A stretch of 64,000 nucleotides of DNA, from NCBI GenBank assembly GCA_015227615.1, contig JAALGZ010000007.1:1426001-1490000 (forward strand), read 5' to 3'. The position numbers and the translations under genes were made by a program. Under the pieces are notes generated by a model. It saw only the letters and a program-made list of their open reading frames with translations, ran no database searches and was not told the origin of the DNA. The stretch's first letter is position 1. Every line of letters starts with the position of its first letter. The DNA is from Labyrinthula sp. Ha. Taxonomy: Eukaryota > Sar > Bigyra > Labyrinthulida > Labyrinthulaceae. Of this stretch, positions 3,001-59,572 are shown piece by piece.

Positions 3001-3357
3001 CCCTACAAAAATTAAACCGATTCTCTACTGCGAAATGGGAATAACCAGATATACCAATAAACGCCCATATACAAAAAATTGCCTAATCTATTATACATGA
3101 TTTACGTAATGTACGAATGCCACGTTGCATAGTAATAAAATATATCTACTATACTGTGGCCAAACAATAAGAACACAAACCGAAGGAAAGATAAAAAAGG
3201 TATAGATAAAAGAGGGATTCTTTTGGGAATAAGATATTTAGCATAAAAATAAGACATTATTAAGACAAAAAAATATTTGAAAACGTAATATTGGTACTAA
3301 CAGGTAGATATAGCTCGTTCCCATTTTCCCGTGCAGTTTGTGAGGAGAAACATAAGA
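1..3357. other. intergenic, AT-rich, no gene seen
   Basis: Only short frames with no family resemblance occur here on either strand. The one visible exception to the AT-rich background is a GC-richer island at about 1640-1790, listed separately. Small genes split by very short introns could be missed by eye. Confidence 0.6.
1640..1790. other. GC-richer island with GGCCC/GGGCC hairpin
   Basis: A stretch clearly richer in G and C than its surroundings. It contains an inverted repeat, GGCCC at 1745-1749 and GGGCC at 1765-1769, with a 15-base loop, followed downstream by a T-run (about 1775-1780). It could be a small structured RNA, an old promoter or chance. No RNA family is recognised. Confidence 0.2.
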
Positions 3358-4575
3358 ATGATTGGGTACAAGAAAGATTGCCTGTTTTTTCATTTTGTAC
3401 TATTTTCAGTCATAATATACTTTGTTCTTTGGATAGATCAATATACTCTGGGATTGTTTCAGAGCTCATCAGATGAAGCTCTTGTTTCAAGCTCAAACCT
3501 TCCAAATGAAATCCCGGACATCATAACACCACTTACGGATTGTGATGAAACTCCTAGTTCTGACATGGAAGTGGAGCACATAAGCTATAATAAAAATTGT
3601 CTTCCTTATGCCATATTTCATTCTCCTTGGAAACGTACAGGATTGAAGTGTAACCTTGTGTATGTAAAGTTAAAGAAGACAGGATCATCAACTGTAGGTG
3701 GAATAGTTAGAGGAATTGCTGATAGAAATAAGAAAATAGAATACACAGGTATTCATGCAACTGTTGATGTTGAAAGGAAAGACTACAACCAGTGCAAAGT
3801 TATTGCAAATCATTTACCCCGGCCTAGAGATCTTCCAGAGGTTACAGATAAAGGTTTGAGAAAGAACACATTTTTATTCACTGTGCTTAGAGATCCTAAA
3901 AACCGTGAAATTTCTGAGTTTTTTCATTTTTTTGCATCTCGAAAAAGACACAGTACTTCAGATGAAGCAATCGAAAACTTTCTCTTACATCATTTTGCGG
4001 CAGATACTTCTACAGAATTCATGGGTGCTCAATACCCAGTTTGTGAGGCTGCATTTAAAGAACCCGATGTTGAAAGAGGTAATAGATGTGTAGAAGAAAT
4101 ATTGAAAAATTTTGACTTCATTGGAGTTACTGAGCGCTTGAATGAAAGTTTGGTGGTGTTGAAAATATTGTTGGGTTTAAGTACAACTGATATTCTTTTT
4201 ATTGGAAATAGTAAAACTAATGGAGGATACGATGATATTGGTATAAAGATACAGGAAACCTTTGTATCACCTAGAATACAGCAAGTACTTGATGCAAAAG
4301 CTGATTCCTTTACTTATTTTTTTGACCAAGAACTCTGGAATGCTGCTCATGTGAAGTTGAGTTCCACAATTAAAGATCTTGGAGAAGAGAGAATTAATCA
4401 AGAAGTTGCTGAGTTTGAATCCTTGAGAGCTGAAGCTGAAAGATACTGTGTTGGAAGGATTTATTTTCCGTATGATTCAGAAGGTAAGAAAGACAACAGG
4501 GCAGAGGATGACTGTTACTGGAATGACAACGGATGTGGAATACTCTGTTTGAAAGAGTTTATTCAGTCAAAATGA
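3358..4575 (+). CDS. type II membrane sulfotransferase-like protein
   Basis: Predicted 405-residue protein with one hydrophobic segment near the N-terminus (about residues 10-32, FFHFVLFSVIIYFVLW), the layout of a Golgi type II membrane enzyme. Two motifs typical of PAPS-dependent sulfotransferases are visible: KLKKTGSSTVGG at about residues 101-112 (5'-phosphosulfate loop) and FTVLRDPKNREISEF at about 173-187 (3'-phosphate site). Spacing resembles the galactose-3-O- and heparan-2-O-sulfotransferase families. It probably transfers sulfate to a glycan, but the acceptor cannot be told. The frame opens upstream with GTG; the first ATG is at 3358 and lies just before the hydrophobic segment, so it was chosen. 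The C-terminal part is cysteine-rich (CYWNDNGCGILC). No intron is needed within the coding region. Confidence 0.72.
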   Translation: MIGYKKDCLFFHFVLFSVIIYFVLWIDQYTLGLFQSSSDEALVSSSNLPNEIPDIITPLTDCDETPSSDMEVEHISYNKNCLPYAIFHSPWKRTGLKCNLVYVKLKKTGSSTVGGIVRGIADRNKKIEYTGIHATVDVERKDYNQCKVIANHLPRPRDLPEVTDKGLRKNTFLFTVLRDPKNREISEFFHFFASRKRHSTSDEAIENFLLHHFAADTSTEFMGAQYPVCEAAFKEPDVERGNRCVEEILKNFDFIGVTERLNESLVVLKILLGLSTTDILFIGNSKTNGGYDDIGIKIQETFVSPRIQQVLDAKADSFTYFFDQELWNAAHVKLSSTIKDLGEERINQEVAEFESLRAEAERYCVGRIYFPYDSEGKKDNRAEDDCYWNDNGCGILCLKEFIQSK

Positions 4576-27500: not shown

Positions 27501-28341
27501 TTCATTAATAAATTTCGTCTAATTAACTTCAAATATAATTTCACAAGATGGTCTGTCCAGTTTTCTTCTTGACCCAAATACCTTTAGAAAGTACTTCATA
27601 GGTGTGTGCAAAAGGTGTTATACTATCTGGAAAAGATTGTTAAATTGCTGCATATAACTTCTGCTGTACTGTAACGGCTTGATGTCAAGCGGGTTAATAT
27701 TTTTCTATTAACTCCTACACAGGTTCTCATTTTCAGCTGGCGTAGCTTCGATCGGTGCCCAATAGGCTTTTCGAAGTTAGCGATAATACTATTCTTGCAA
27801 ATTCTAAATGAATATCGGCTTAATTCCAAGAAACATTCCAAAATCGCGTATAAAGTCATACCAATTAGCAAATGTTGTCCACCGACTCGGCTTTGAATGT
27901 TAATACAGGGCAACGGCCACAGTATTTGTCAATATGAAGTGCACACGATTGATATTATAATCTTTCCGTGCCTTGAACTAGTTTTTAGAGAGTAAATAGT
28001 TAACTAAAAATTATAAAACCATATCTGTAAAGTTGAAAGAAATATAAAATAAGTGTCGAACATCAGAAACTTTAACTTTGGGCAGACTAGATCACTAGGG
28101 TTATTTAATTATATTATTTTGTTCTAGCTCTGTGAGGCCAAAAGGCTTTGCTTCTTATACTGATAAAAACAAAACAATTCCTTCATGTTATTAAGTATGA
28201 TTAGGTTTTACGCTCTGTTTTTCCTTTAACTTTAGGAATTTCCTGCTTCCATTATAGTCTCTCTCGTTTTCATGTTTCCTCTTCCATTATAGCTTATAAA
28301 CGTTTAAATTCCATATTTCGGTAATTTCTTAAAATGAACCG
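21543..28341. other. 6.8-kb gene desert
   Basis: No recognisable gene, RNA or transposon family. Short frames such as 24093-24311, 26170-26397 and 27623-27913 (minus) were read and show no convincing homology. Composition is AT-rich throughout, with local low-complexity runs. Confidence 0.55.
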
Positions 28342-31300
28342 ATGGAAACATTACAAATATTTTATATTGATCATTACCTGAGCAAAACAAAAGAAACGAA
28401 CACAACAGAGCCTGTTTTTAGAATATATGGAAGAAATGAAAAAAATAAATCTGTTCTAGTTCATATCCATGGGTATTTCCCTTACCTTTATATTCTTGTT
28501 CCCGAAAGCTTGAAAGAAAAAAATCTCAAGCCTTCTGAAATAACTGAAGAGATAAAACAACGAATAAATACTTTTTGGAATAGTTATATTTCTTCCAACT
28601 CTAACACCATTCATACAGTTCATATTGTACACAAAGTATCTTTTGTTTATAAAACAAATTTTTATGGATATAATCCTCATAAACAACGATATCTAAAAAT
28701 ATTTCTTTCTAATCCTGGTTGCATTAAACCAATTGGAAATGCATTTATCGAAGGGAAAGTATTTGAACAAAAAATTCAACCTTTTGAAACTCATATTAGT
28801 TTTCAAACACATTTTTTATCTGATTTAGAATTGAGCGGAATGGGAACTATATCTCTAAGAAAGTACCACAAGCTTGTGAAATTAGACAAAAGTTGTGTTT
28901 CAAAGTTAGAGCTAGAAGAATTTTCGTCAATTTTTGGTGTACAAAAAGAATTTAAATCTTCTCTTTCTTGTGACTTTGAAATTTCTTGTCAAGTAAAAGA
29001 CATCCTTGTGCACAAGAGTAATAAAGAGAATGTTGTCATTCCTAGTTTAAGTCCTTGGTTGAAACAAGTAAGAAGGTACGAAACATTAGTAGGAACAAAA
29101 TCTCCTTCCCCGACACATTGCAGAGAAGACTTATTTTTTGAGAATGAGGCGTCCAAAGAATATAAACAACTTTTGCATAATTGGCTTGAGGATGATAAAC
29201 TTGATGATGACACTCAAACTCAGGTTTCTCAGAATGTGCTTCCAAGAAAGGCAGATGAGGAAGAAAAAACAAGTCAAAATTTATCCCAAGAAATGGTGGA
29301 TGTGTTAAATTTTTGGCAGTCTGAAGTGGGGAAATCTGATTTTAGTTCGACTCAGAATAATGAGTCAGAAGATGAGGGTTCTGATTCAGATGGAAGCCAA
29401 TTTGTAGAGGCAGTTAGAAATTCCTGGATAACCATGTCTCAACCTGCTTCTCTATTTACTGCAGATGAAACTGAAGCATTTGTTGTTGAACAAAAAAAAA
29501 ATAAAAAGAGAAAAAAATTTGTACCCGAGATAGAACAAATTCATGAAAGGCCTTTTTTCTCCAAGAAGAATGATTTTTTGAGAAACCAGAAATCGACGAG
29601 ATTGCAAACTACAAGTATTGTAAGAGAGGGAGATACTTATTTTATGCCACCAAAGTATAAGAAAACACTTCCTGATCCCAATGGTCAGATAAAGACCGAG
29701 AAAACTAATCCTAGGAGGCTAAAAGAAAAAGATGTCGGTTTTCTTCCAACGCAGGATTTTGTATCATCACACGGATCTTTTGCGATTGATGCTCAAGAAG
29801 CTTTTAGATCCGAACAAAATTTTCTCTGGAGAGTTTTAGTGTTTGAACTTTTTGCCCGTTCCCAAAATGGACAAATGCCTAATGTTTTCAAAGATCCTAT
29901 TCTTGCTTTGGCTATGAGAATAGTTGATATTAAGTCAAATGAAGTAGCAAAAGATGAAAGGCAAACTTTTGTAGTGGGTCAAAATGTCAATAGTGAGTAT
30001 GATCTACTGACCAAATTTGGAAAATATGTTGAAGAGAAGGATCCAGATTTTATTTTATCGTATGAAATGCAAAAACATGGATTAGGATACATTCTCAGAA
30101 GAGCGGAAAGAGTTGGAATAAAAAACTATTATAGAAAGTTATCACGGGCAGTTTTTGGGCAACAAGATCGAAGGCATTTAAATGATAGTTGGGGTGCCAC
30201 AACCCAAAGTGAGTTTTGGCTAACTGGAAGATATATTCTTAATCTTTGGCGAATTGTTCGTAAGAATGTAACTCTTCGGATATATACTTTAGAAAATGTA
30301 TATCAGGAACTGCTCAAGAAACCCCTTCCTTATTATTCTCCTTCAACAATCCAGATGTGGTTTAATAGAAAAGAGGATATTCATCAAGTAATAGAACATC
30401 TATTTAGAAGAATTGAAGGTGTATATTCCATCCTTGACCATCTAGATCTGCTTATACGAACCTCTGAGATGTCGCGTTTTATTGGATGTGATTTTCATTC
30501 GACACTAACAAGGGGTAGTCAATACCGCGTAGAGTCCATTCTAATCCGAATTTGCAAAGCAAAAGGTTTCCTCTGTCCATCAGCTAGCAAGGAGCAAGTT
30601 AAAGGACAACCTGCTTTAGAAGAAATAGCCTTAACCTTAGAACCTAAATCAAGGCATTATGTTGATCCAGTCGCAGTGTTTGATTTCAGATCTCTTTATC
30701 CTTCAGTAATCATAGCTTATAACCTATGCTTTTCTACATTTGTAGGAAAACTAAGGAACAGAAGATCATCAAAAGGATGCTTTTATGAACAACTTGGGTT
30801 TGTAAACCCGTACACTTATCTTTCTCGAGAAGAGATTAACATTCTATGGGATGCAGATGGCTTGTATATAACACCAACTGGTTCTGTATTTGTTTCCAAA
30901 AGTATTCGAGAAGGAATTCTTCCTGCCATGTTGAAAGAAATATTAGAGACTAGAATCAAAGTAAAATATGCTATGAAAGGGTTTCATAAGAATAAGAATA
31001 AATTAAGTGCTGCCTTATACCGAGTTTTGGATGCAAGGCAGTATGCTCTTAAAATGATAGCGAATGTTACATATGGGTTTACTGCTGCCTCCTTTTCAGG
31101 TAGGATGCCATGTGCTGAACTTGCTGATACGATTGTTCGTCTTTCGAGGGAGTCTCTTCAGAAATGCATTGATACTATTATGTTAAAGAAATTGCCCCGG
31201 TGGAAAACATTTGAAGTAGTCTATGGGGATACTGATTCTTTATTCGTATTGATGAAGTACAAGACAATGAGTGAAGCATTTTTATTTTCCGAAGATATTG

Positions 31301-32298
31301 CAGAAACACTTTCTGTTTTTTTTCCGCCTCCAATGAAGTTGCAATTTGAAAAAGTTTATGAGCAATGCTTTCTTTTGGCGAAGAAAAGATACATTGGTGC
31401 TATTTTTGAATCTAAAAGAGAATGGGAAAAATACAAAGAGCACTCAATAAAGCTAAAGCTTGAGGCTAAGGGTGTTGAAATTATTCGCAGGGATAATTGT
31501 AGGTTAGTGTCTGTTATGATGGAAAAACTTTGTCTCGTGCTTTTTGCAAAAAAAGATATAAGTTTAGTACAGGAAGAATTTCAAGACTATGTACGCAAAA
31601 TGTTTCATGGAGAAATTCCGGTTATGGAGTTTGTAATTTCCTCAAAGGTCAGGTTGTTGTTTAACTTGAGAACCCAAAAAGTTCAATCCATGTACAAAGC
31701 AGAATTACCCCCACCTTCTGCGATTGTTGCATTAAAGGAACTCACTAAAGATCGAAACAACTATCCTTTATATAAGTCAAGAGTTCCTTATGTTGTAATA
31801 TCAGATCTAGAATCAACACGTTTAGCCGATAAAGTTGAGTATCCAAAGTTTGATTCTAAAGTAAACTTTGTTTACTACATGGAACACATAATCCTGCCGA
31901 GTTTAGCAAGAATATTTGATATTGTAGGTGCTGATGTCTATATTTGGTGGCAAAGTCGGAGAAACTTACCCCAAACTATCCCAATGGCTTTAAATACTGT
32001 GGAGCATCGAACAACACGAATATTCAAGTACTTATTGAGTTCAACTTGCAGTTTATGTAGAAAACCAACAAATGAGGAAGTGTGCACTGGTTGTTTGCCA
32101 AAGAATAGTGATATAAAGCGAAGACAAGCTGTAAGATATGCTCTTCAGTTAAAGAAGAGTACATTAGAAAATGAGTACCTCCGTTTCTACAAGTTCTGTA
32201 ATACCTTTTGTGCAGTTCGATATGGTACTCTCTGTTCCAACAGTGACTGTACAATTTATTATAGAAGAAAATCTTCAGAAAATCAGGTGGCTTGGTAA
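28342..32298 (+). CDS. REV3: DNA polymerase zeta catalytic subunit
   Basis: An intronless 1318-residue B-family polymerase. The N-terminal VHIHGYFPYLYILVPE block (about 41-56) is typical of REV3. A polar, acidic, low-conservation insert spans roughly 210-480. The exonuclease-like domain reads DPDFILSYEMQKHGLGYILRR (about 566-586), lacking the proofreading carboxylate pattern, as in other REV3 proteins. Polymerase motifs are intact: A, DFRSLYPSV (about 781); B, KMIANVTYG (about 904); C, YGDTDS (about 961). Two C-terminal cysteine clusters follow: CSLCRKPTNEEVCTGC (CysA, zinc type, about 1236) and CNTFCAVRYGTLCSNSDC (CysB, the iron-sulfur and accessory-subunit site, about 1286). It performs translesion synthesis with REV7. 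It is shorter than yeast Rev3 (1504) and far shorter than human REV3L. Confidence 0.94.
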   Translation: METLQIFYIDHYLSKTKETNTTEPVFRIYGRNEKNKSVLVHIHGYFPYLYILVPESLKEKNLKPSEITEEIKQRINTFWNSYISSNSNTIHTVHIVHKVSFVYKTNFYGYNPHKQRYLKIFLSNPGCIKPIGNAFIEGKVFEQKIQPFETHISFQTHFLSDLELSGMGTISLRKYHKLVKLDKSCVSKLELEEFSSIFGVQKEFKSSLSCDFEISCQVKDILVHKSNKENVVIPSLSPWLKQVRRYETLVGTKSPSPTHCREDLFFENEASKEYKQLLHNWLEDDKLDDDTQTQVSQNVLPRKADEEEKTSQNLSQEMVDVLNFWQSEVGKSDFSSTQNNESEDEGSDSDGSQFVEAVRNSWITMSQPASLFTADETEAFVVEQKKNKKRKKFVPEIEQIHERPFFSKKNDFLRNQKSTRLQTTSIVREGDTYFMPPKYKKTLPDPNGQIKTEKTNPRRLKEKDVGFLPTQDFVSSHGSFAIDAQEAFRSEQNFLWRVLVFELFARSQNGQMPNVFKDPILALAMRIVDIKSNEVAKDERQTFVVGQNVNSEYDLLTKFGKYVEEKDPDFILSYEMQKHGLGYILRRAERVGIKNYYRKLSRAVFGQQDRRHLNDSWGATTQSEFWLTGRYILNLWRIVRKNVTLRIYTLENVYQELLKKPLPYYSPSTIQMWFNRKEDIHQVIEHLFRRIEGVYSILDHLDLLIRTSEMSRFIGCDFHSTLTRGSQYRVESILIRICKAKGFLCPSASKEQVKGQPALEEIALTLEPKSRHYVDPVAVFDFRSLYPSVIIAYNLCFSTFVGKLRNRRSSKGCFYEQLGFVNPYTYLSREEINILWDADGLYITPTGSVFVSKSIREGILPAMLKEILETRIKVKYAMKGFHKNKNKLSAALYRVLDARQYALKMIANVTYGFTAASFSGRMPCAELADTIVRLSRESLQKCIDTIMLKKLPRWKTFEVVYGDTDSLFVLMKYKTMSEAFLFSEDIAETLSVFFPPPMKLQFEKVYEQCFLLAKKRYIGAIFESKREWEKYKEHSIKLKLEAKGVEIIRRDNCRLVSVMMEKLCLVLFAKKDISLVQEEFQDYVRKMFHGEIPVMEFVISSKVRLLFNLRTQKVQSMYKAELPPPSAIVALKELTKDRNNYPLYKSRVPYVVISDLESTRLADKVEYPKFDSKVNFVYYMEHIILPSLARIFDIVGADVYIWWQSRRNLPQTIPMALNTVEHRTTRIFKYLLSSTCSLCRKPTNEEVCTGCLPKNSDIKRRQAVRYALQLKKSTLENEYLRFYKFCNTFCAVRYGTLCSNSDCTIYYRRKSSENQVAW

Positions 32299-46439: not shown

Positions 46440-49008
46440 AGCTGAGTATATTACTATAAAATTCATTATCTATGAGTTTCTCCCCCAAACATGGTATTCT
46501 ACTAAGAAAGTACTCTAGCTTCTAAGAGTCTTAATTATTTCAAAGAGACTTGCTAGAGCATAACTAAGAGAATGTTTTAAATATATGCTTTTAGCTATGA
46601 TGTCAAATCTAATTAATTTTTATAATATAGCGGATTTTATTCTTTGTGGCAAAATAATAGCTGAAAAAATACAAAACTATTCTAGATAATGGAACTCCCC
46701 ATTGGCTTTCATCACAAGTATTGTCAGTTCTTGAGGTCATGTGATTCAACATGAATTTTTGCATGTCCTATACTTAGCTCACAGGCAACTTCAGCCAATT
46801 GGTAAAAAATCAGTGATCTTGTTTGAAGAATTTGACATTTGGTCAAGAACATTGGTGAAGGCAGGAATCTCAATATTGATGGCTTTGTTGAATTTATAAG
46901 TATGCACCGGGGTGATTAGATAAAACTTAAGTGTGCAGTATCTCACTGGTGTAATCTAATATTGGCACTCCTAGAATACCAAGGTCTCAATTATTAAAAC
47001 ATGAACATCAATAAAACTGGCTCGAAAACAGAAAGTGTTTATCTTTTTTGTTGGTTTGAAGTGAGTTCAAAGGAACTAAAAAAACTTTTTCTGTGTATTA
47101 TTAGAATAATATGAATATTTCCTTGATTTTCCCCTCATCTCTGCCCTGTTATTACAACGCCTGAGTTTAATGGTAATGAGCATGTATTTTCTACCTTTTT
47201 GAAAATTAAATGGTGACAAAGCAGTTATTCTGAAGAATTATGCTTTGTGTATATTTTGTTAGCGTTAGGATCTCAATGTTGACTCGAGAAAATCATAGTT
47301 CCTGTAGTTACGCCTTCTCATGCTCCACATATGAATGGAGTTCTAATGATTGTTTCAGCTTTATCGTCTTTTGCCAAAGTTCACAAAGTGTTAATAGTCC
47401 TTAGTAGTAAACTTAATTATTAAATGTTAAACTTTCCGTATAAAACCTTTTCCATGGTTTCTAGCCAAGTTAGATTAAAAATAGCGGCAAAAATATATTA
47501 GTTATCATCTTGAGGTAATTATTACCGATGGAATTTCAGACAACAACAGAGATTTTCGAGATGGAATCCCTCGTTCCTCTAAGAACTCAGCGGAAACCTT
47601 ATTAGCGAGGCAATCACAAGCAATATTTTTAGATCGTTACCTTTCAGTTAAACACGCAGAATTCAACATATAAGACACCTTGATATACGTCATAAGGTCA
47701 ATTTCACGTTGTGATAATGAATTCAACTAATTTTTTTATGACTCCATAGCTTAGCAAAAACTAAACTGCAATCGTTTAGCTTTTTCGATGTACATACACA
47801 TGTGTCTTTTAAAGAAGGTACTTAAGTCATATTCCCGAGTTGGTTTGAATTGGTAAATTTGTTCTACAAAGTTTATGGCCAGGTTTAGAATCATCAGAGC
47901 TGTCAACAATAAAATAAAACACCTTAGCATATATATTTTAAAGTCTTGTTTTTAAGAAAATGTATACCTAGGATGCATTTTAAAAGTGACCTATGAATTC
48001 CATCCTTAGGTACAAGGTAATGAAAGGCAAACGATTCAAAAAAAAAATCCATTGGTGGGCTTTATGTCTCTATTGTCTAATAAATTGATAAAGAAGATGA
48101 ATAATAGCTGAAAATAAACCTTTAACATAGAAGCATTACTCGGCTTCTAATAAGAGTTATTACTAAGCAGAGGGTCAAATATGAACTAGAAACCAGTACA
48201 CCTTGGTTGCAATGAAATGCTACTGGCAAAGAAGATGTCCAACTCGTGCAAAATGCAAAATTCGAGCAGTTTTATGAATACCAGGGGTGCAAATTTTTTA
48301 TTAATACTTGAAAAATATTCCCTATATATATATTAAACACAGTTGAAGTAATGAACATAAAATTCAATAGAAATCTTTAGATAACTGACACCCTTTAGAG
48401 AGGCTTACAATATCGAGCGGACGGTACCTGTATAAGCCCACTAATGCAACTAGTGAAGCGTTCGTTTCATGTACATATATCTTTGCCTTTAAAGTTTCTT
48501 ATGGGAGTTGTCAATGTTTCAAAGGTTCTTTATATGATTCATGTGCCAAGAAGTCTAGAAAAAGTTTACTCTAATTTGTTCTACTAGTTGGCAACAACAA
48601 GCAGCGATTTAGCATAGAACCAGGTTGTTACTTGCCAGCTTCAATGTTAGATATCTTCACCGGTGAAAATATTATTTTATCAAAGTTAGTTGGCCATTTT
48701 TCTTAGGGATTATTATCTTTGGAAATCTGGATGTTTTTCTGTAGGATGTCTGTTTTGACAGCTGACAAGCAATTGAAAGATCTCTGATAGAATGATAGAA
48801 CAATTTCTCTATAATTAATCTCTATCGTGATATTAGTAGCTTCTAGAAACATTCTGCTAAGAATCCTGTATGTACTTTTTCTGTTATTTCAAAAATTAGG
48901 CCATTCTATTGTTCCAATACAGCATAATAATTCTTTCGACAGGCGCAGATCTTCGCTGCGTTCGATTTAGAAAACAAAAGGCTGTCCAAGATAACCAAAC
49001 AAACTTGT
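46440..49008. repeat. tandem-duplication spacer, copy 1
   Basis: About 2.57 kb nearly identical to 59571-62141. I counted roughly 15-20 differences by eye, bunched in the first ~100 bp and in the last ~35 bp. No gene is visible within it. Its left edge, 46440, corresponds to the TAG stop of the beta-helix gene in the other copy; further left the similarity ends, so no gene tail precedes it. Confidence 0.92.
49004..49008. repeat. target-site duplication, left
   Basis: CTTGT here and CTTAT at 56011-56015 flank the retroelement. The unoccupied site in the second unit reads CTTGT (62137-62141), which fixes the insertion point and a 5-bp duplication with one later change. Confidence 0.75.
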
Positions 49009-49256
49009 ATTCGTTTATAGTCACAAAAAATAAACTTCTTTTTATAAAACTCTACGGACTCTAAGAGGAAAACTGTATCGGCTTATTCTCAGAGTAGTTT
49101 GCTGCGTAAAAGTTGAATAAGATGTAAATTAATAAACTCTCTTTTCAAGACTTCCCTCAAATCTTAACGGTTCTATTTCAAAGAAAAAACTATACCAAAA
49201 TATTAACAACTGGTAATAGAATACATTTCAGTTCATATTTCGAACTCAAACCAACA
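49009..49256 (-). repeat. long terminal repeat (3' LTR of the element)
   Basis: 248 bp matching 55764-56010. On the element's sense strand the LTR begins TGTT; it is preceded by a purine-rich AAAAATGGGG stretch suited to a polypurine tract. The two LTRs differ at very roughly 15% of positions by eye, indicating an old insertion. Confidence 0.85.
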
Positions 49257-49679
49257 ATACCCCATTTTTATTACTAGAGTTAATTTCCTACAGCTAACCA
49301 TCCTCAGCGTAGGCTGTTTTTCCTGCTAAATAAATCTAACTTTTTAACTTGCTTCTCAAAACGTGCTTCAATAATTTAGTAAAACTTCTCTTGTTAGCAA
49401 CTGTTGCCAACCACTTCTACAAACACACATTATTTATCAAAATTTCTGGTTTCTAGAGAATCTGACAACTTTCCGTAAACGCCGATTAATAATTCCTTGA
49501 TACACTTTTGAATAAGTTTCCAAACGTGGGTTGCAACTTCTATTTAGCAGATATTTTCATCCACAGCAAATTATCCATGTACTTAATATTGTTTTTCTTG
49601 AAAATACCCATAGCTAAAGATCTTTTACTCGGAAATATCCAGAGAAAAACAACAGTGTTCTCCATTAATTTTTAAAATT

Positions 49680-50101
49680 CAATTTCCTTAAATCATGATA
49701 TGCCATGGTGTCGTAAAAATTAGATGCTCCTCTGATTGGGTTCTTTGTCATAAATGGATAAGGTGGATCTAAACTAACAACTTCAAAAACATCTTTTCAC
49801 CCTTTTTAATAAAATTATTTATATCACCTTTATAAAAATACACTTTATGATGTATAATCCGTTGCTGCATCACAAACTTATCCTTTTTAAGGGCGTAAAA
49901 GTAAGTCAAATTCGTTCTTTTTATATCAAGACCAAATTTCGAATCAGTTATCGGTTTAATATATTGCAAGTCAGACCTTATTTCATCGACAACATTAGTA
50001 ACCTCTGTCTTCCTTCTTGCCATTTCAGCTTCAAATCTACCAGTTTCTCTAAATTTTCTTTTCCAACATTGAGTTTTATTCTCAACATTAGTCCAATTCA
50101 C
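49680..50101 (-). other. MT-A70/METTL-like N6-adenine methyltransferase block within the Gypsy fossil
   Basis: Downstream of the integrase and chromodomain regions, a minus-strand block reads VVSLDPPYPF and, a little later, YDTMAYHDLRKLNF. This matches the catalytic DPP(W/Y) motif and the following Y-x-T-M...RLN segment of METTL3-like proteins (human METTL3: DPPW, then YGTMSDDEMRRLNI). Upstream lies a long charged region (49769-50101). In the family this motif transfers a methyl group to N6 of adenine in RNA or DNA. Only the motif region is clear to me. It is part of a broken fossil element. Confidence 0.55.
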
Positions 50102-50759
50102 TAAATAAAAAGATGTTTTTTTGCTTTTTGCTTCGATAAACTTTACAAGCTCCTCAGCTCCGTCAGTTGAACTACAATTAAATTATGCCATTATATCAAC
50201 TTTTCTCAGTTCGTTCTGTATTTAAACCATCTATCTTAGCATAACGTATGGAGGTAAATATTCGTAGTTTAAATAAAGTAGCCCCCCATTAAATCCCTTC
50301 TCGAAAAATATTTAACCCCTTGTGATTTGGTATTATCTTTACATGCCACATCTAAATCAAGCAACAAATTCGAATAAACCGAGATTTCTTGTCTTCCTAC
50401 GAGATGCTGTAACTCTCTATAGAACTGTCTTTTAGGCCAGTTCTTAAGAGATTTAACATTCTTCCATATTTAGAAAACCCAAACTTTAAAAGACAATGTT
50501 TCAAGATGTAAACTTCTATCTTATTCCAACGTATGAGATGATTAAACACGGGGATCATAAATTGACTAATTGGATCAAAACTTAAAGTTCATTCAACTCT
50601 TTGTCAGTGAGATACAAATCGTAAAGATCTACAATGTATTCATCTGCATTTCATATTTCAGCTTCTTGATTTGCTGATCGTAATTAAGTTAAACATGTTT
50701 TATCTCTGTGAATTTATTCTTCGATAGAAAACCAATCGCTAATTTTAGCAAATCCTCAA

Positions 50760-50870
50760 TTCATTTTTCTGCTGGTTCACATGTTGGTTCTAATGGGAAT
50801 CCTCTCCAATGAACCAACAAAAAATATTCGTTATCATTTTTCTTAATCTTAACCAACTTCTTAACTTCAA
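50760..50870 (-). other. chromodomain-like block of the Gypsy fossil
   Basis: The minus strand reads NEYFLLVHWRGFPLEP followed by CEPAE, the core of a chromodomain (usual form YLVKWKGY...TWEP). Chromodomains after integrase define chromoviruses and are thought to guide integration to marked chromatin. Confidence 0.65.
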
Positions 50871-50999
50871 GTTTTTCTGAATTATGCTAATAACAAATCT
50901 TTATTTTCGTAGAAGGCAAAAAAATGTGATGTGGCGTAAAACATCATTCTAGATGCGTGTACCTCTTCTTCATCTTCAAATGAACTCTTCAGCAAATAT

Positions 51000-53650
51000 A
51001 AATACGACCCCAGTTGTCGAATGATCTGAAATAGAGCAATCCACTGAGGGTTAACCTTAGAACCTAGTTTCGGTTTGCTATCTAATACAAATTCTGTAGT
51101 ATGAAAATTCATCAGAATTAGATTATATTTTTTAGTAGATAGAGTATTTTCATATTGCCCTAACCGCTCGGCAAATGAAAACAACATCTATTGGTATCCT
51201 CTTATTTCTTTTTCTAACTCTGAAGAAACTTCATTAAACTTGTTTAATTGAATTGATGTTAGCTTCAAGTTCGATTCTCTTCTCAAAGAAACTTTTCTAG
51301 GTTTCTTACCCAACAAGATCTGAAACGAGGCGAGGTTTTTTCTGCTCCCCAAAGGCTTCGAAATATGATAATATTTTACCTGTGCTAATACCTCAGACCA
51401 ATCTTCAACCTTCAAATTATACTCCGAATGTAGGGTTCTCAAATTCTTCAAGATTTTCTTATTTTGGATTTCTGTGGCTCCATTCGTGTAAGGATCATAG
51501 GCCACTGTAAACTTCTGACTTGCTCCATTTTGTCGAACAAAGGTATCTACAACTGCGTTTACATACAGTGATCTCTTGTCAGCTAGTAAAATAAAGTCAT
51601 CTACTAAATCATGGCGGGAGTACCATTATCATAAAATATTTACAACGTTTATTGCATTGACATTTTTAAAATCCTTCAACATAGTAACTCTTGACAAAGC
51701 ATCTATTAAAGTCATCACATAACCTTCCTCGGGCGAAATTTACAAATAATATGAAATCAGAAATGCTCTACATCCACTTGGTAATTGAGTAATCGCTAAA
51801 GGTCTCCCTGAAACCCTTGATGCATGTTGGCAATGCAAACATTGACTTTCATTTTTTTTTTATATTTTGTGAAAATAATTTTTTAACCTTTTGAAAATAC
51901 ATAACGTAATTAGCTTAAATTCGTTTCTTTTCCTGATCCACTGCCCCATGATTGAAGCGTAGATGTGTATGAACAATCACCGGCAAGAATAAACTTTTTG
52001 TAACCGCCAATTTATTTTTATATCTTCTCAAAATATTTTCTTTGAACTTTAGATCTTTCTTTTGTAAATTTAAGTAAAATTATTCATCCATTTCGGGTCA
52101 GGCATCCCCATATTTCAATGTGAAATCTATGTTACGTAAACCAACATGAAGCTCATCGAACTTCCCCAAAAAAATTGAACATTAAAGTGTTATACAGTTG
52201 CAACTGCAACTATAACTTTGTCAGCTTGCACCATATCAAGCTCAGGACTAAGCCAAGGAGATAAAATATCGGCAGCCACGTTCTGCTCTCCTGGGGTATG
52301 GTGTACTTCTAAACAAATACCTTGAAAGATCAAACTCCAATGCGTCAGCATTTCAGAATATGATTTTCTGGACGCTTTAATTAGATTCAAGATATAGTAT
52401 GAATTTTTATGATCTGTAAAAATGATTTTTTCCCATTTGATTTCAAAAAATAGGAGTTTTTCTACGACGCGATTACTACTGGAAATAGTTCTTTAGAATC
52501 AATATGTCAGCTTAAAGAACTATCCCTGAACGTGCCAGAAGCTTTTCCTATTACATGGTAATTAGTCCCCATCGGAAATTGTAACTTAATTTCTTAAGCT
52601 GTTTGACAAGCAGAATAGCTCCTGTAAAATTTTGAATCATTTGCGAATAGAACCAGATCCAACCTTTGATCGTAATAACCTAGTGTGTTAGAGAATACGA
52701 GCTTAACTACTTTCATCAATTTCTCGTACGTGTGATTCATTTCTTCGCTCCAATCCAGAACTACCTTGCTTCTTTCTAATTTCATAAGTCTAACGTAAAT
52801 ATTGAATTCTCTGGTCATTCTTTTTTTAGCTCCGAAAAACCCGGTAACATTTTTGAGGCCCAATTTCGAAAAGAAAATAGTTGTGCTAACTCATGTACAT
52901 AGATAGGTTTCGATCTCTCCATTAATCTCTTTAAAAAATTGTAATGTAACCCATAACCATCTTTTATCAATGTGTGCCCTCAAAATACTGCACTGTGGGC
53001 AATCAGGTCACATTTCCATATATTCAACCTTAATCTCTTATTTATAATAGCCTTTAATAATTTCTCAATAAAGTCGTGTATGTTTTTACATCCAACGCAA
53101 ATAAAACTGTATCGTCGGTCCATTATAAAGCATGATTAGGCCAAAGAGATGTTGGCGTTGAAACATGTGTAATTACCCTTTGAGAAAATAAAGACGGGGT
53201 ATTACACCAACCTTGGGGGGCTCTTTTAAACGAGTAAGACACATCCCAAGGTGTTCCAAAGGTAAATAAATGCTGTGAGTTAAGATGTGTAGGTAAATAA
53301 CCAAACCCGCTTGGCAGGTCAAACGATCAAGAAATGATGTTTCCTTTTATTTTTACAGCCTATAGATCAGTATTCCGTAAGTTTTTCACAGCCTTTTGAG
53401 TGATTTCGTTTAATGCCCGGAAATCAACTACCATTCGATATTTTTATATCCCTTTTTTGGGACAAAAAAAGCTCTCATACAAGTTGTTGGATCATCATTA
53501 ACTTCAACAATGTTATGTTTCATCATTTGATCCACTCTTTTCTTTATGAACCCCTCTTTTTCAATACCAAGAGCAATTTCATAAAATCTCCTACTGATAT
53601 TCCCTTCATCAAGGAACATTTTATAAGTTGTAGAAGAGATAGCTGAGTTG
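51000..53650 (-). other. pol core region of the Gypsy fossil (RT, RNase H, integrase)
   Basis: Blocks typical of Ty3/Gypsy pol are visible. These are the start of the RT (KEGFIKKRVDQMMKHNIVEV, about 53480-53540), an RNase H end with LEVHHTPGEQNVAADILSPW (about 52240-52310), and an integrase core end with YDPYTNGATEIQNKKILKNL (about 51440-51500). The region is broken. Confidence 0.8.
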
Positions 53651-55740: not shown

Positions 55741-55763
55741 ATCCACAGGGAATATTGATAAAT

Positions 55764-56010
55764 ATTCGTTTATAGTCCAAAGAAAATAAACTTGTTTTTA
55801 TAAAATTCTACGGACTCTAAAAGGACAACTGTATCGGTTTGTTCTCAAAGTAGTTTTTTGTATAAAAGTAGAATAAGATGTAAATTAATAAACTTTCTTT
55901 TCAAGACTTTTTTCAAAACGTAACGGTTCTATTCCAATAAATCATATACCAAGATATTAACAGCTAGTATTAGAATACATTTCAGTTCATAATTGAAACT
56001 CGAACTAACA
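55764..56010 (-). repeat. long terminal repeat (5' LTR of the element)
   Basis: 247 bp matching 49009-49256. Its outer end lies 63 bp upstream of the ATG of the first beta-helix gene copy, so it replaces that gene's upstream region beyond those 63 bp. Confidence 0.85.
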
Positions 56011-56073: not shown

Positions 56074-59000
56074 ATGACAGAAGTAATTGGCCAACCCTTT
56101 CAAGCACGATACAACCCTAACGAACTTTCGCGGTTCACTAAGTTAAATGCTATCTTCTCGGCTGTTGCAGAAAAGGTTTTGGGCGGGAATGCAGAAGAAG
56201 GGGTAATAAAATTCGGAGAAACTCGAGAAGTGTTTGCCCCTAGTGTTGATTTGCAGACAATCATCAAGAAAGTTGCCGACATCAGGAAAAAGCTTGATGA
56301 CCCAATTTATGTATTATTTTTCCCTCTGCCCTAATTCTTAGATTAAACTTCCTTCCAGGCTGACCTTATCGGGTGCCGTAGACATACCAAATGAAACTTA
56401 CTTCATGGGGGGTTCAGAAGAGGAACCAGCGACCGTGAGTGTAACTTCCGGGGCGTTAGTGTTTTCCGGGGAATCAAGTGCGTTCCTCAATACCAATTTT
56501 GAAGTATCAGGTTTCGGTGCTAAGTCCAGTAGCAAGAGCCTATTTTACGTACGTTCAGGTAAGTATGTTGGGTTTAAGAATGTCAGTATTTCTATTGAAA
56601 CTGGTGTAAAAAGCGCGAAGGAGGAAAGAAGCCTGATTCTTTGTGAAGGTCAAATTGAAGGTGATAATTTTATGCTACATTCAGACTCCAAGAATTGCTG
56701 GAGCGCTTTTGAGTTTGTCGCGAACGCGAATGAATCGGATTTTGAAAGTTCATTAAGAAAAGTTTCCATAACTGAATTTGATACGCCTATACGTGCCGTT
56801 GATTGTGCTGTATATGTAGATAAAGGAGTTTTGAATGGTAAGCAAAGAGCCCTTGAAGGTGACAATGCGCGGGTGACGCTAAAGAATTCATCTTTGAACG
56901 CAGTAGAATGTTTGCTCTTAGTAACAGGCCCTGAGATGTACGTCTTTGCTGAGTCTACGGCTTTTGAAGGCGGAAAAGTTGGTTGCATGTATGCAAATAA
57001 GGCCTCTGGATTCATGAGGAAGTGTAGCTTCAGCAACATGTCCGAAGCTGCAGTTCGCTGTCAAGATAGCGCCAGAGTTTCTTTCGATGATTTCCTGTCG
57101 AAGAACTCAGATCATGCCTTCGAAGCCTTTTCAAAGGCCAATATAAAAGCAAAGGACTTGGAGGTTGAAGATTGCCTCGAAACTGCAGTAGTCGTAAAAG
57201 GATCTGACACAGAGTTTCATTTTACAGTGTTAAATGCAACAAACAACAATAATGGTGTGCTTCATGTTTCTGGAGGTGGAAAGATTGTGGGAAAGGAGGG
57301 TAATTTTAGCCAATCTGAGGGAATTGTTTTACTTGCTGCCGATGAAACGACTAGGGCTAATCTGGAAAATATAAAAATTACAGGTGGAGAAACGGGTTTT
57401 CTTTGTATGAAAAATGCGGGTGCCTTGCTCAAAAAGTTAAGACTCGAGAACCTAACCAAAGTTGCTGGACATATTGCAGATGCTAATGCAGTTATTGAGG
57501 GCAGTATTGTTAATCAAACAGCAACTGGCAAAGGAGGTTTTAGCGTCTCTTTTAAGAAGGATAACGGTCAGAACATTAGGTTTAAAGATGTTAAGATGCA
57601 GAAATGTGATATTGGTGTAAGGCTGCATCAGCAAAGCAGTAACACACGAAGCAGAAGGAGTAATTCAAGGCAGCAAGATCCAAATGCAGCGCGTGGCCAG
57701 CTGAGTAAAAGTTCTTTGGATAACTGTGCTTTTGTAAAGTGTGATGTTGCGTTGAAAGTTGACGGAGCGCGAGCAAACGTAAGTGGCTGCTCATTCATTA
57801 TGTCAAATAAGCATGCAATTGAGTTTAAAAACTTAACGCTTATTACAGGAGCAGACAAGAGAAAGGAAAGTAAACTCGAAATTCGTTGGCCGAACTACGT
57901 AGAGCCTTTTATTGTACATGGTGATGCTTTATCAAATGATAGTCAATTTCTTTCTGCGGCTACGAAGGAAAAGGCCTTCTGTGGGTCAACAGATTTTGAA
58001 CCTGTTATGCATCTTCCAATTCTGACTTTAAGGATTACGCAAGCAAAGAGTTTATTTAGAAATACAGATCCAGGCTCGCGTTATAGGGTGCGAGTTATTA
58101 TGCGCAGTGTTAGCCATATGTTAATTTTGCTGAAGCAATTGCCAGAGAAACTTCTTAAAAAGGATCTACTTGATGATCCTGGTTTGGGAATGTTCGCCGC
58201 TACATTTAAACTATATGAGGATAAGCAAACGGCAACTAATACTCTAGTTAAAATTGATGATCTGTTTGAAAGTTGGAAGGACCTTACTCGAACCAGACTT
58301 TATGATCAGGCCCTTACAGCGTTAGATGAAGCTTTTGCGCAAAAGCACATAAGCATGTCTCAGTTCGATGATTGGGTTACTATTCTGGAGGAAAATCAAA
58401 GAAAATGCTTCGTTAATTCCAAATATAATAGGAGAAGAGATTACCTGCTTCAAACTGCCAAGGAAAACCCTCTAAAAACATGGTATTTTCTGGATAAGGA
58501 GAGTAGTGAAACGAGCGAAGGAAGAATGCTTAGAAAAGAAGTGCTGACTTTTTTGGCAAGAGATGCTGAGGAGAATAGACTTGAAAATGTTGGAAACTTT
58601 CACGCTTCTTGGGTAGCACAATGGGCAGTAAACCTATTAGGAGACTCTTTTTTAAATGACGTCATGCCCAAAGATTCTAGATTACGTTATGCTTGGGCTA
58701 ATGCGAAGTTCGATAAGAAGGAATTTGACGACATATATCGCTTATATAAAAGTAACCAAGCTCCTTCAGGTGATAATACTGTGGATCCTCTTATTAAGTT
58801 CGAGACCTACACTATGGTGGAAAAATCAGGGCAGAGACTCTCAACAGATGAGATGCAAACTCTCTCTAGCCTGTTTGGCAATTCTATTGCATTTGCCGGC
58901 GCTATGCAACATGCAGCTAAAATGTTCAAGGGAGAAGGCGCTTTGCCCGGATTCTTGAGAAGGCTAGCAGAGACTCCAATGGGCCCTGAAAAACTCTTAG

Positions 59001-59572
59001 GAGAGCTGTCAGCTATCCAAGACGAGGCTAATAGCGTTACACGCGATCATAGAAGAAGAGTTGTACTTGCAGTTATGTCACACTTTCTCTTACCCGATTC
59101 CACTAAGGAACCAGAAATATACAAGAGAGTTGGGTCAACCTATGAAGGCTGTGACGCTTGCTTTGTCCAAAAGTTACAGCCGTGGAACGAGCTTAAACTA
59201 GGGAAGTGTAAATACAACCATAGATATTGTCGAAACTGTATGAAGGAGTCCATGTCTGCAGGAGATAACTTGTTTCGTGGTATATGCCCAGGCATTCGTG
59301 ATGATGGAGGTCCTTGCCCTGCATTAGCTACCCGGAGAGAGATGGAAATGGCAAACATGGATAGGGATGTGATATATAATATCATTGCCGTTAGAGTGGA
59401 TGATTTCTTGAACAAGATACCAGGCTGGGAACGTTGTGATGCTCCTGGATGCATTGGTGGAAAAGGTGGGGTTACAAAGAGTTTTTTCACTTGTGTTTTG
59501 TGTAAAAAGATGGTTGCAAAGGATGGTGGGATGAGTGATCCTACTGTAGAAATGAGGTTGCTCAAAGGCTAG
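56074..59572 (+). CDS. beta-helix protein with C-terminal RING/IBR-like zinc region, copy 1
   Basis: Exons 56074-56310 and 56342-59572 (31-bp intron 56311-56341) give 1155 residues. Splicing joins DDPIY to IKLPSRLTLSG in frame, and the same structure is kept in copy 2. Domains: a helical N-terminus (1-75); a long run of strand-turn repeats (about 90-585, for example FMRKCSFSNMSEAAVRCQDS and LDNCAFVKCDVALKVDGARA) of the parallel beta-helix (pectin-lyase-like) type, interrupted by an Arg/Ser-rich loop near 510-535; a helical region (about 620-1005); and a cysteine-rich end with YEGCDACF, CKYNHRYCRNC, CPGIRDDGGPCP, then CDAPGC and FTCVLCKK. The spacing recalls RING1 and IBR of RBR ubiquitin ligases, but no RING2 with a catalytic cysteine follows. 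It may act in ubiquitination, with the helix binding targets. The ATG was chosen because it and the 5' flank are conserved between copies. Richer in GC than its surroundings. Confidence 0.8.

Follow-up and report, generated by a model that had tools for sequence, protein, structure and literature searches.

The minus strand of the window, by which we mean the whole 64-kb stretch of DNA that was analysed, contains an old, broken Ty3/Gypsy element, and the question raised by this locus is whether a methyltransferase domain of the MT-A70 type belongs to this element, of which kind such a domain is and what it would do there. An earlier note had placed the domain after the chromodomain and ahead of the 3' LTR on the basis of two motifs. 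Both were located, on the minus strand: the stop-free piece 50764-50886 contains YFLLVHWRGFP, and the piece 49668-49796 contains DPPYPFMTKNPIRGASNFYDTMAYHDLRKLNF. The parts of the element are as follows:

49008..49256, minus strand: 3' LTR (aligned part), from the pairwise match to 55763-56010
49283..49790, minus strand: MT-A70 (AMT1-like) domain, interrupted by stops and frameshifts; from tblastn, the alignment to the relative L067 and one sub-cut-off Pfam piece
49802..50203, minus strand: linker from the p1-like region to the MT-A70 domain; from the L067 alignment, with Pfam at chance level (E 0.057, 0.1)
50202..50585, minus strand: p1-like region (Myb-type, DNA-binding subunit of the AMT1 complex) in broken frames; 47-58% identity to L067
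50764..50886, minus strand: chromodomain core (EYFLLVHWRGFP); PF00385 at E 0.003, sub-cut-off
50885..51625, minus strand: C-terminal part of the integrase; the alignment to L067 runs from 51499 downward (53% across the entire match)
52193..52492, minus strand: fragment that we take to be RNase H-like by motif reading alone; no match in Pfam
53126..53326, minus strand: reverse transcriptase fragment; RVT_1 at E 3e-4, sub-cut-off
55763..56010, minus strand: 5' LTR, from the pairwise match to 49008-49256

The two LTRs are direct repeats that agree at 215 of 246 aligned bases (31 mismatches, five gapped positions), a divergence consistent with an old insertion; visual inspection of the flanks showed no target-site duplication, an absence to which we attach little weight because the copy is old. 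Decay is equally apparent between the LTRs: among 10 pieces of the window submitted to Pfam, five gave no match, two gave unrelated matches at chance level and three gave sub-cut-off matches to Chromo, MT-A70 and RVT_1, with no rve match in any of them, while an integrase profile aligned to this copy (L055) with 208 bits across five stops. In the Pfam search on individual blocks that the earlier note had proposed, the piece 49543-49671 matched MT-A70 positions 42-81 (E 0.012, sub-cut-off), and the DPPY piece 49668-49796 by itself gave no match. Comparison within the genome was far more telling. In a tblastn comparison of 30 MT-A70 domains of this genome to the window, the best ones aligned piece by piece over 49787-49283 (best E 6e-10); L067, a close relative with a stop-free stretch of 744 aa, aligned piecewise with 47-78% amino-acid identity across the integrase C-terminus, the p1-like region, the linker and the MT-A70 domain, regions in which the window copy is interrupted by stops and changes of frame; and at the DNA level 49270-50900 is matched by 15 other genomic copies with 76-78% identity, one of which (C88:1020002-1021641) has its MT-A70 match inside an open frame of 2164 aa. 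A chance motif, considered as a source of the match, is ruled out by the tblastn pieces, the 15 DNA copies and the L067 alignment. Because of this comparison with domains of the same genome, we regard the presence of an MT-A70 domain in the window copy as settled despite the weak scores of single pieces. Close to the start of the domain are DPPY and NPIRG motifs; the domain continues past 49680, where the earlier note had drawn the boundary, to end at 49283, some 27 bases ahead of the 3' LTR.

With regard to classification, the window copy is flanked by LTRs and itself retains a reverse transcriptase fragment and the integrase C-terminus, and in its relatives reverse transcriptase and RNase H lie ahead of the integrase in a single polyprotein. 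In the window copy and its relatives a chromodomain follows the integrase, as expected of a chromovirus; the level that we assign is a chromodomain-bearing Ty3/Gypsy element, and chromodomain-bearing Gypsy lineages outside the chromoviruses are described in the accessible text of PMC12477816.

The earlier note had made its case from one broken copy, and the genome provides a great many more. When the 50.8-Mb genome and 14 control genomes were scanned with Pfam MT-A70, 150 of 150 scored matches in the former (the best 150 of 354 candidates) exceeded the cut-off, and the 14 control genomes gave no match; a scan using the divergent copy L068 likewise returned 150 of 150 scored matches (the best 150 of 420 candidates), and the union of both comprises at least 236 distinct MT-A70 places, the AMT1 of the host included. 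Partners of these places were sought among roughly the 150 best matches each for p1, Chromo and integrase, and partner counts are lower bounds. On the same strand, Chromo was found 886-1445 bp upstream of at least 112 of the 236 places, p1 451-992 bp upstream of at least 110 and integrase 1693-2212 bp upstream of at least 85, with one or more of the three upstream of at least 204; the same windows placed downstream of the 236 places captured p1 once and Chromo and integrase not at all among the matches listed. Using 6-kb windows around the best 150 places, Chromo was upstream in at least 91 cases, downstream in one and on the opposite strand in four among the matches listed, and integrase upstream in at least 36, downstream in two and on the opposite strand in one, again among the matches listed; wherever Chromo and integrase were both scored, integrase lay further upstream (27 of 27). 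The same order of domains in related elements, proposed by the earlier note as a check, is thus borne out by a narrow spacing on the same strand across the genome.

Among the matches listed, 32 of the 236 places lack a scored partner; inspection covered 20 loci, fetched from the 50 partnerless ones of the first scan. Eighteen of these read integrase, linker and MT-A70, 17 of them with a chromodomain, whilst L046 has neither integrase nor chromodomain and L034 consists of MT-A70 alone. An unrelated host gene was considered for such loci, and the sole stand-alone MT-A70 among the 20 is L034 (C91), the AMT1 of the host. Conversely, eight integrase loci without an MT-A70 match from the first scan nearby were examined: five carry the chromodomain, the p1 region and MT-A70 (weak in L066, 4e-5), and the remaining three contain RVT_2 and are Ty1/copia elements. 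Chromodomain, p1-like stretch and MT-A70 are present in all 10 copies that were aligned, and the family as a whole is large, diverse and partly intact. A separate observation is that some MT-A70 copies with equal or near-equal scores occur in pairs about 7 kb apart (C62:563456/570271, C132:835172/842412, C1:1636119/1643108), perhaps as tandem insertions or as elements with a common LTR.

The stretch leading from the chromodomain to MT-A70, which the earlier note had missed, is a domain in its own right. In all four linkers tried, the best PDB match was p1 (L051, 5.9e-18; L032, 4.2e-12; L052, 7.8e-8; L053, 7.4e-5), and a profile from 10 copies matched p1 over positions 5-75 at 7.4e-20, most other Myb matches ending before position 60: judged from these matches, the stretch is homologous to p1, with similarity that extends beyond the Myb repeat. 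Two results count against this assignment, namely that the Myb repeats of SNAPC4, a protein from another complex, follow closely as the second-best match of the profile (1.8e-16 over 7-56) and that Pfam returned no more than a sub-cut-off Myb match in one of five element linkers. The p1 segment of L067, from which the p1-like region in the window was assigned, is row 2 of the 10-row alignment. A genome search with p1 as the query had as its two best matches L070 (C1:1284467-1284841, 42%) and L071 (C100:135979-136308, 45%), neither with a scored element domain near; both are taken as candidate host p1 genes, and L070 matches p1 in the PDB at 4.7e-30. Of the remaining 148 matches listed, at least 110 have MT-A70 downstream and at least 80 have Chromo 88-245 bp upstream, with neither of the two scored for 19 of the 148 among the matches listed.

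A retropepsin-like stretch lies between p1 and MT-A70 in three of the 10 aligned copies (L050, L051, L032), reading LLDSGA ... ILGEDWL in L051, with sub-cut-off Pfam matches in L051 (E 0.005) and L032 (E 0.07). The same position is taken by a protease match in a copy of 2655 aa (C95; 72927-73211), while a copy of 2107 aa (C113) has its protease upstream of the integrase, the usual place; a protease between p1 and MT-A70 is an unusual domain order for a Ty3/Gypsy polyprotein.

As to the kind of METHYLTRANSFERASE, the earlier note had seen a close match to the METTL3 pattern, but METTL3 is not the nearest kind by score: for all 14 element representatives the best score with any of 15 AMT1s exceeds that with METTL3, by 18-78 bits, Tetrahymena MTA1 alone beats METTL3 in all 14, by 3-64 bits, and the neighbouring domain is p1. 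Compared to PDB chains, L051 gave a tie (METTL3 110.5 bits, MTA1 110.1 bits), where we take 7f4l to be the Tetrahymena complex and the METTL3 chains to be human. A P-x-R-G insert behind DPPW is found in 119 of the 120 AMT1 homologues listed, that of the host included, and a P-x-x-G counterpart is present in all 32 distinct stop-free element domains (L001-L058), whereas METTL3 has no such insert. The catalytic motif in these 32 domains reads DPPW in 18, DPPY in three and DPAW in 11; some lineages may therefore be altered or inactive. DPAW occurs in copies of the L001-L014 types and in L032, types that include long open frames. In the MT-A70 tree (31 rows: element domains, AMT1s and METTL3, without AMT2/5, AMT6/7, METTL4, METTL14 and bacterial sequences), the 14 element domains form one side of a branch (81/76) and are split from the 16 AMT1s in 96% of bootstrap trees; they stand beside the AMT1s, nested neither within AMT1 nor with the AMT1 of the host. 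METTL3 attaches between the element domains and the AMT1s (element domains plus METTL3 on one side, 56/54), with long branches. The tree is neutral on AMT1 versus METTL3, and the label AMT1-like is used because of the scores, the insert and p1, the tree being no part of its basis. A METTL3 reading (RNA m6A) lacks support, and by homology the closest kind is AMT1/MTA1, which would make the domain a putative writer of DNA 6mA.

The host itself has a stand-alone AMT1 (L034:3027-4007; C91:220767-221270) in a frame of 327 aa, which scores 249.6 bits with MTA1 versus 126.8 with METTL3. Over 62-63% of its length it shares about 65% identity with the AMT1s of Mucochytrium and Hondaea, and it groups with them (98/86), apart from the element domains; Mucochytrium, Hondaea and Aurantiochytrium are Labyrinthulomycetes, and judged from this one gene the host is probably one too, or a relative.

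Many of the element copies have open frames: among the best 150 of 354 candidates, MT-A70 lies in a frame of at least 1000 aa in 53, of at least 1700 aa in 33 and of at least 2000 aa in 19. In all five copies that were annotated piecewise, RNase H, rve, Chromo and MT-A70 share a single stop-free frame, to which RVT_1 is added in the three copies whose stretch reached it; MT-A70 was far above the cut-off in all five, with sub-cut-off matches for rve in L052 and L032 and for Chromo in L051 and L032. A EukProt gene model of 2328 aa (P0001), probably from the same species, contains RVT_1, RNase H, rve, Chromo and MT-A70 and was the one protein at E<=1e-5 (98%) among 445 candidates of a search at polyprotein length. 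Searching with the 10-row alignment, which covered 6669 candidates, gave two proteins at E<=1e-10. These are EukProt MAKER models with no MT-A70 in their precomputed Pfam annotation, and they show 93-94% identity across 66% and 24% of the query; the same element was not found in viral contigs in one scan. These protein and viral-contig searches need shared short words and cover one length range each, so that absence elsewhere is beyond their reach.

The MT-A70 domain is under purifying selection. Its median dN/dS is 0.16 (range 0.05-0.47) in 67 pairs at dS 0.05-0.3 and 0.09 in 10 pairs at dS 0.3-0.8, and four integrase pairs in this range gave 0.07-0.16; a single pair at dS 0.04 gave 0.49, and 93 pairs above dS 0.8 (median 0.46) are near saturation and stand outside this claim. 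All values are Nei-Gojobori estimates from non-independent pairs, which share rows and include some loci twice via overlapping fetches. Concerning descent, the integrase and MT-A70 trees of 10 copies both give (L050,(L051,L032)), with 96/95 and 51/88, and (L067,L053,L054,L052), with 100/99 and 91/97; the order within the latter group differs, deep branches are weak and two integrase rows are substitutes (L061 for L068, the same element, and L057 for L067, the same family). These congruent groups would fit one old capture inherited with the element, and are no proof of it. The p1 tree (12 rows) is too short for resolution.

Taken together, the observed order of the domains, their narrow spacing across many copies, the homology to AMT1 and p1, the open frames and the purifying selection make it rather probable that the element in the window is a decayed representative of a Ty3/Gypsy group whose polyprotein ends in chromodomain, p1 and AMT1-like MT-A70, a predicted module for N6-adenine methylation of DNA; its activity and purpose we infer. 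The module would have been captured from the AMT1/p1 pathway, probably once, would be made as part of Pol and would reach chromatin together with the integrase via the chromodomain and p1. There it may methylate adenine, probably in ApT, on element cDNA or around the new insertion: in the simplest mechanism, the protein of the element would mark the cDNA or the site of insertion of that element with 6mA, the sequence target, a need for the AMT6/7 of the host and the effect of the mark being likewise presumed. The available text of PMC12695648 reports that in AMT1-bearing species 6mA marks transcriptionally permissive regions, that p1 and p2 aid the DNA targeting of AMT1, that AMT6/7 pairs with AMT1, that Aurantiochytrium limacinum has 6mA peaks and that an ichthyosporean p1 exhibits a PHD histone-reader domain; the accessible part of a review (PMC13297926) describes P1 of the Rhizopus complex as a Myb-like protein that binds DNA. 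Because 6mA goes with transcriptionally permissive chromatin in AMT1-bearing eukaryotes, such a mark would allow a newly inserted copy to stay expressed. For DNMT-bearing retrotransposons, self-methylation of the retrotranscribed DNA was suggested by de Mendoza et al. (PMC5890265, as far as its accessible text goes). The fuller reading, that a retrotransposon lineage took over a eukaryotic activating writer (chromatin reader, p1 and AMT1) and stamps itself with 6mA so that its copies are born transcriptionally permissive, we put forward as a tentative one, slightly on the doubtful side.

Other explanations share parts of this evidence. The p1 domain and a weak or inactive MT-A70 could act as a tether that binds chromatin bearing 6mA or the AMT1 complex and steers integration to active promoters, with methylation secondary; the position of the module after the chromodomain in all 10 aligned rows and DPAW in 11 of 32 distinct domains would suit this, but DPPW or DPPY is retained in the other 21 and the MT-A70 domain is under purifying selection, and we consider a tether unlikely. 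Somewhat more unlikely still is that MT-A70 methylates the RNA of the element (m6A, as METTL3 does) and thereby aids translation, packaging or escape from RNA sensing: the fold is common to METTL3, the scores of L051 with METTL3 (110.5 bits) and with MTA1 (110.1 bits) are about equal and in the tree METTL3 is no further from the element domains than the AMT1s are (56/54), yet AMT1 is preferred by 18-78 bits in 14 of 14 representatives, the AMT1-type insert is found in 32 of 32 distinct domains and the fusion partner, p1, belongs to the AMT1 complex as a subunit that binds DNA.

With broken copies counted as well, there are more than 100 times as many element-borne copies as stand-alone AMT1s, of which the loci examined showed one, and this numerical excess could mean that many AMT1-p1 proteins of the element compete with or overload the 6mA pathway of the host and weaken host control, the element itself remaining unmarked; a single chain with the integrase argues for local action instead, and we regard interference of this kind as improbable. 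That host methyltransferase genes merely neighbour Gypsy relics, by chance or through an assembly artefact, might be said of the broken window copy on its own, but is refuted by single stop-free frames across the domains, by the narrow spacing and by the EukProt gene model with the same domains, probably from the same species; we give it next to no weight. The predicted DNA adenine methylation module remains the reading that we prefer.

Among known systems, the closest is the AMT1/MTA1 complex (MTA1-MTA9-p1-p2, MTA9 being AMT6/7), which shares with the elements an AMT1-like catalytic domain bearing the P-x-R-G insert as well as a p1 subunit, the comparison covering AMT1 and p1 among these four; the elements differ in that p1 and the catalytic domain form one protein, located behind integrase and chromodomain, and are mobile. 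METTL3, an RNA enzyme, shares the MT-A70 fold but has no insert, and all 14 representatives score less well with it than with an AMT1. According to the available text of PMC5890265, retrotransposons with DNMTs (LINE and DIRS elements of Symbiodinium, and those of charophytes) likewise have a eukaryotic DNA methyltransferase in their coding regions and hundreds of copies, but the enzyme is a cytosine C5 one of an unrelated family, with no p1-like partner described there. The same text includes DIRS elements with a Dam-like adenine methylase, and an adenine methyltransferase in a retrotransposon is hence not without precedent, although those enzymes are of the bacterial Dam type, from another family, and reside in tyrosine-recombinase elements instead of Ty3/Gypsy. 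A transposon-borne combination of DNA binding and methyltransferase is also seen in the ParB-DNA methyltransferase protein of Sola1 from Ectocarpus, there in a DNA transposon and with a prokaryote-type N4C/N6A enzyme (PMC12477816, in the part accessible). The N4CMT-chromodomain protein of bdelloids resembles the elements as a 'Histone-read-DNA-write' fusion of chromodomain and DNA methyltransferase, but is a host gene outside element polyproteins, with a bacterial 4mC enzyme that marks silent chromatin (PMC8885841, accessible text).

In the literature searched, with most subscription papers outside it, no MT-A70 or p1 domain in a Ty3/Gypsy polyprotein was found, and the available portions of PMC12695648, PMC6338049, PMC5890265, PMC12477816, PMC11441545, PMC13297926 and PMC8885841 contain no AMT1-p1 element. 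Within the compass of these sources, retrotransposon-borne DNA methyltransferases are already known and the AMT1-p1-chromodomain form is new; the known transposon-borne DNA methyltransferases found in them are 5mC writers or of bacterial type. In the present elements, components of the eukaryotic 6mA pathway, itself linked to active chromatin, would have been captured together with the DNA-binding subunit, which suggests that elements may be able to write an epigenetic mark onto DNA themselves. In addition, a natural one-chain p1-AMT1 fusion may serve as a tool for studies of 6mA writers.

The window also contains genes outside the element, all on the plus strand. A DNA polymerase delta catalytic subunit is encoded at 28333-32298 in a single open frame of 1321 aa, and this uninterrupted frame suggests few introns. 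At 56342-59572, an open frame of 1076 aa with a beta-helix match (E 1e-7) starts about 330 bases outside the 5' LTR of the element, on the opposite strand. A Galactose-3-O-sulfotransferase-like gene is located at 3301-4575 (E 2e-10).
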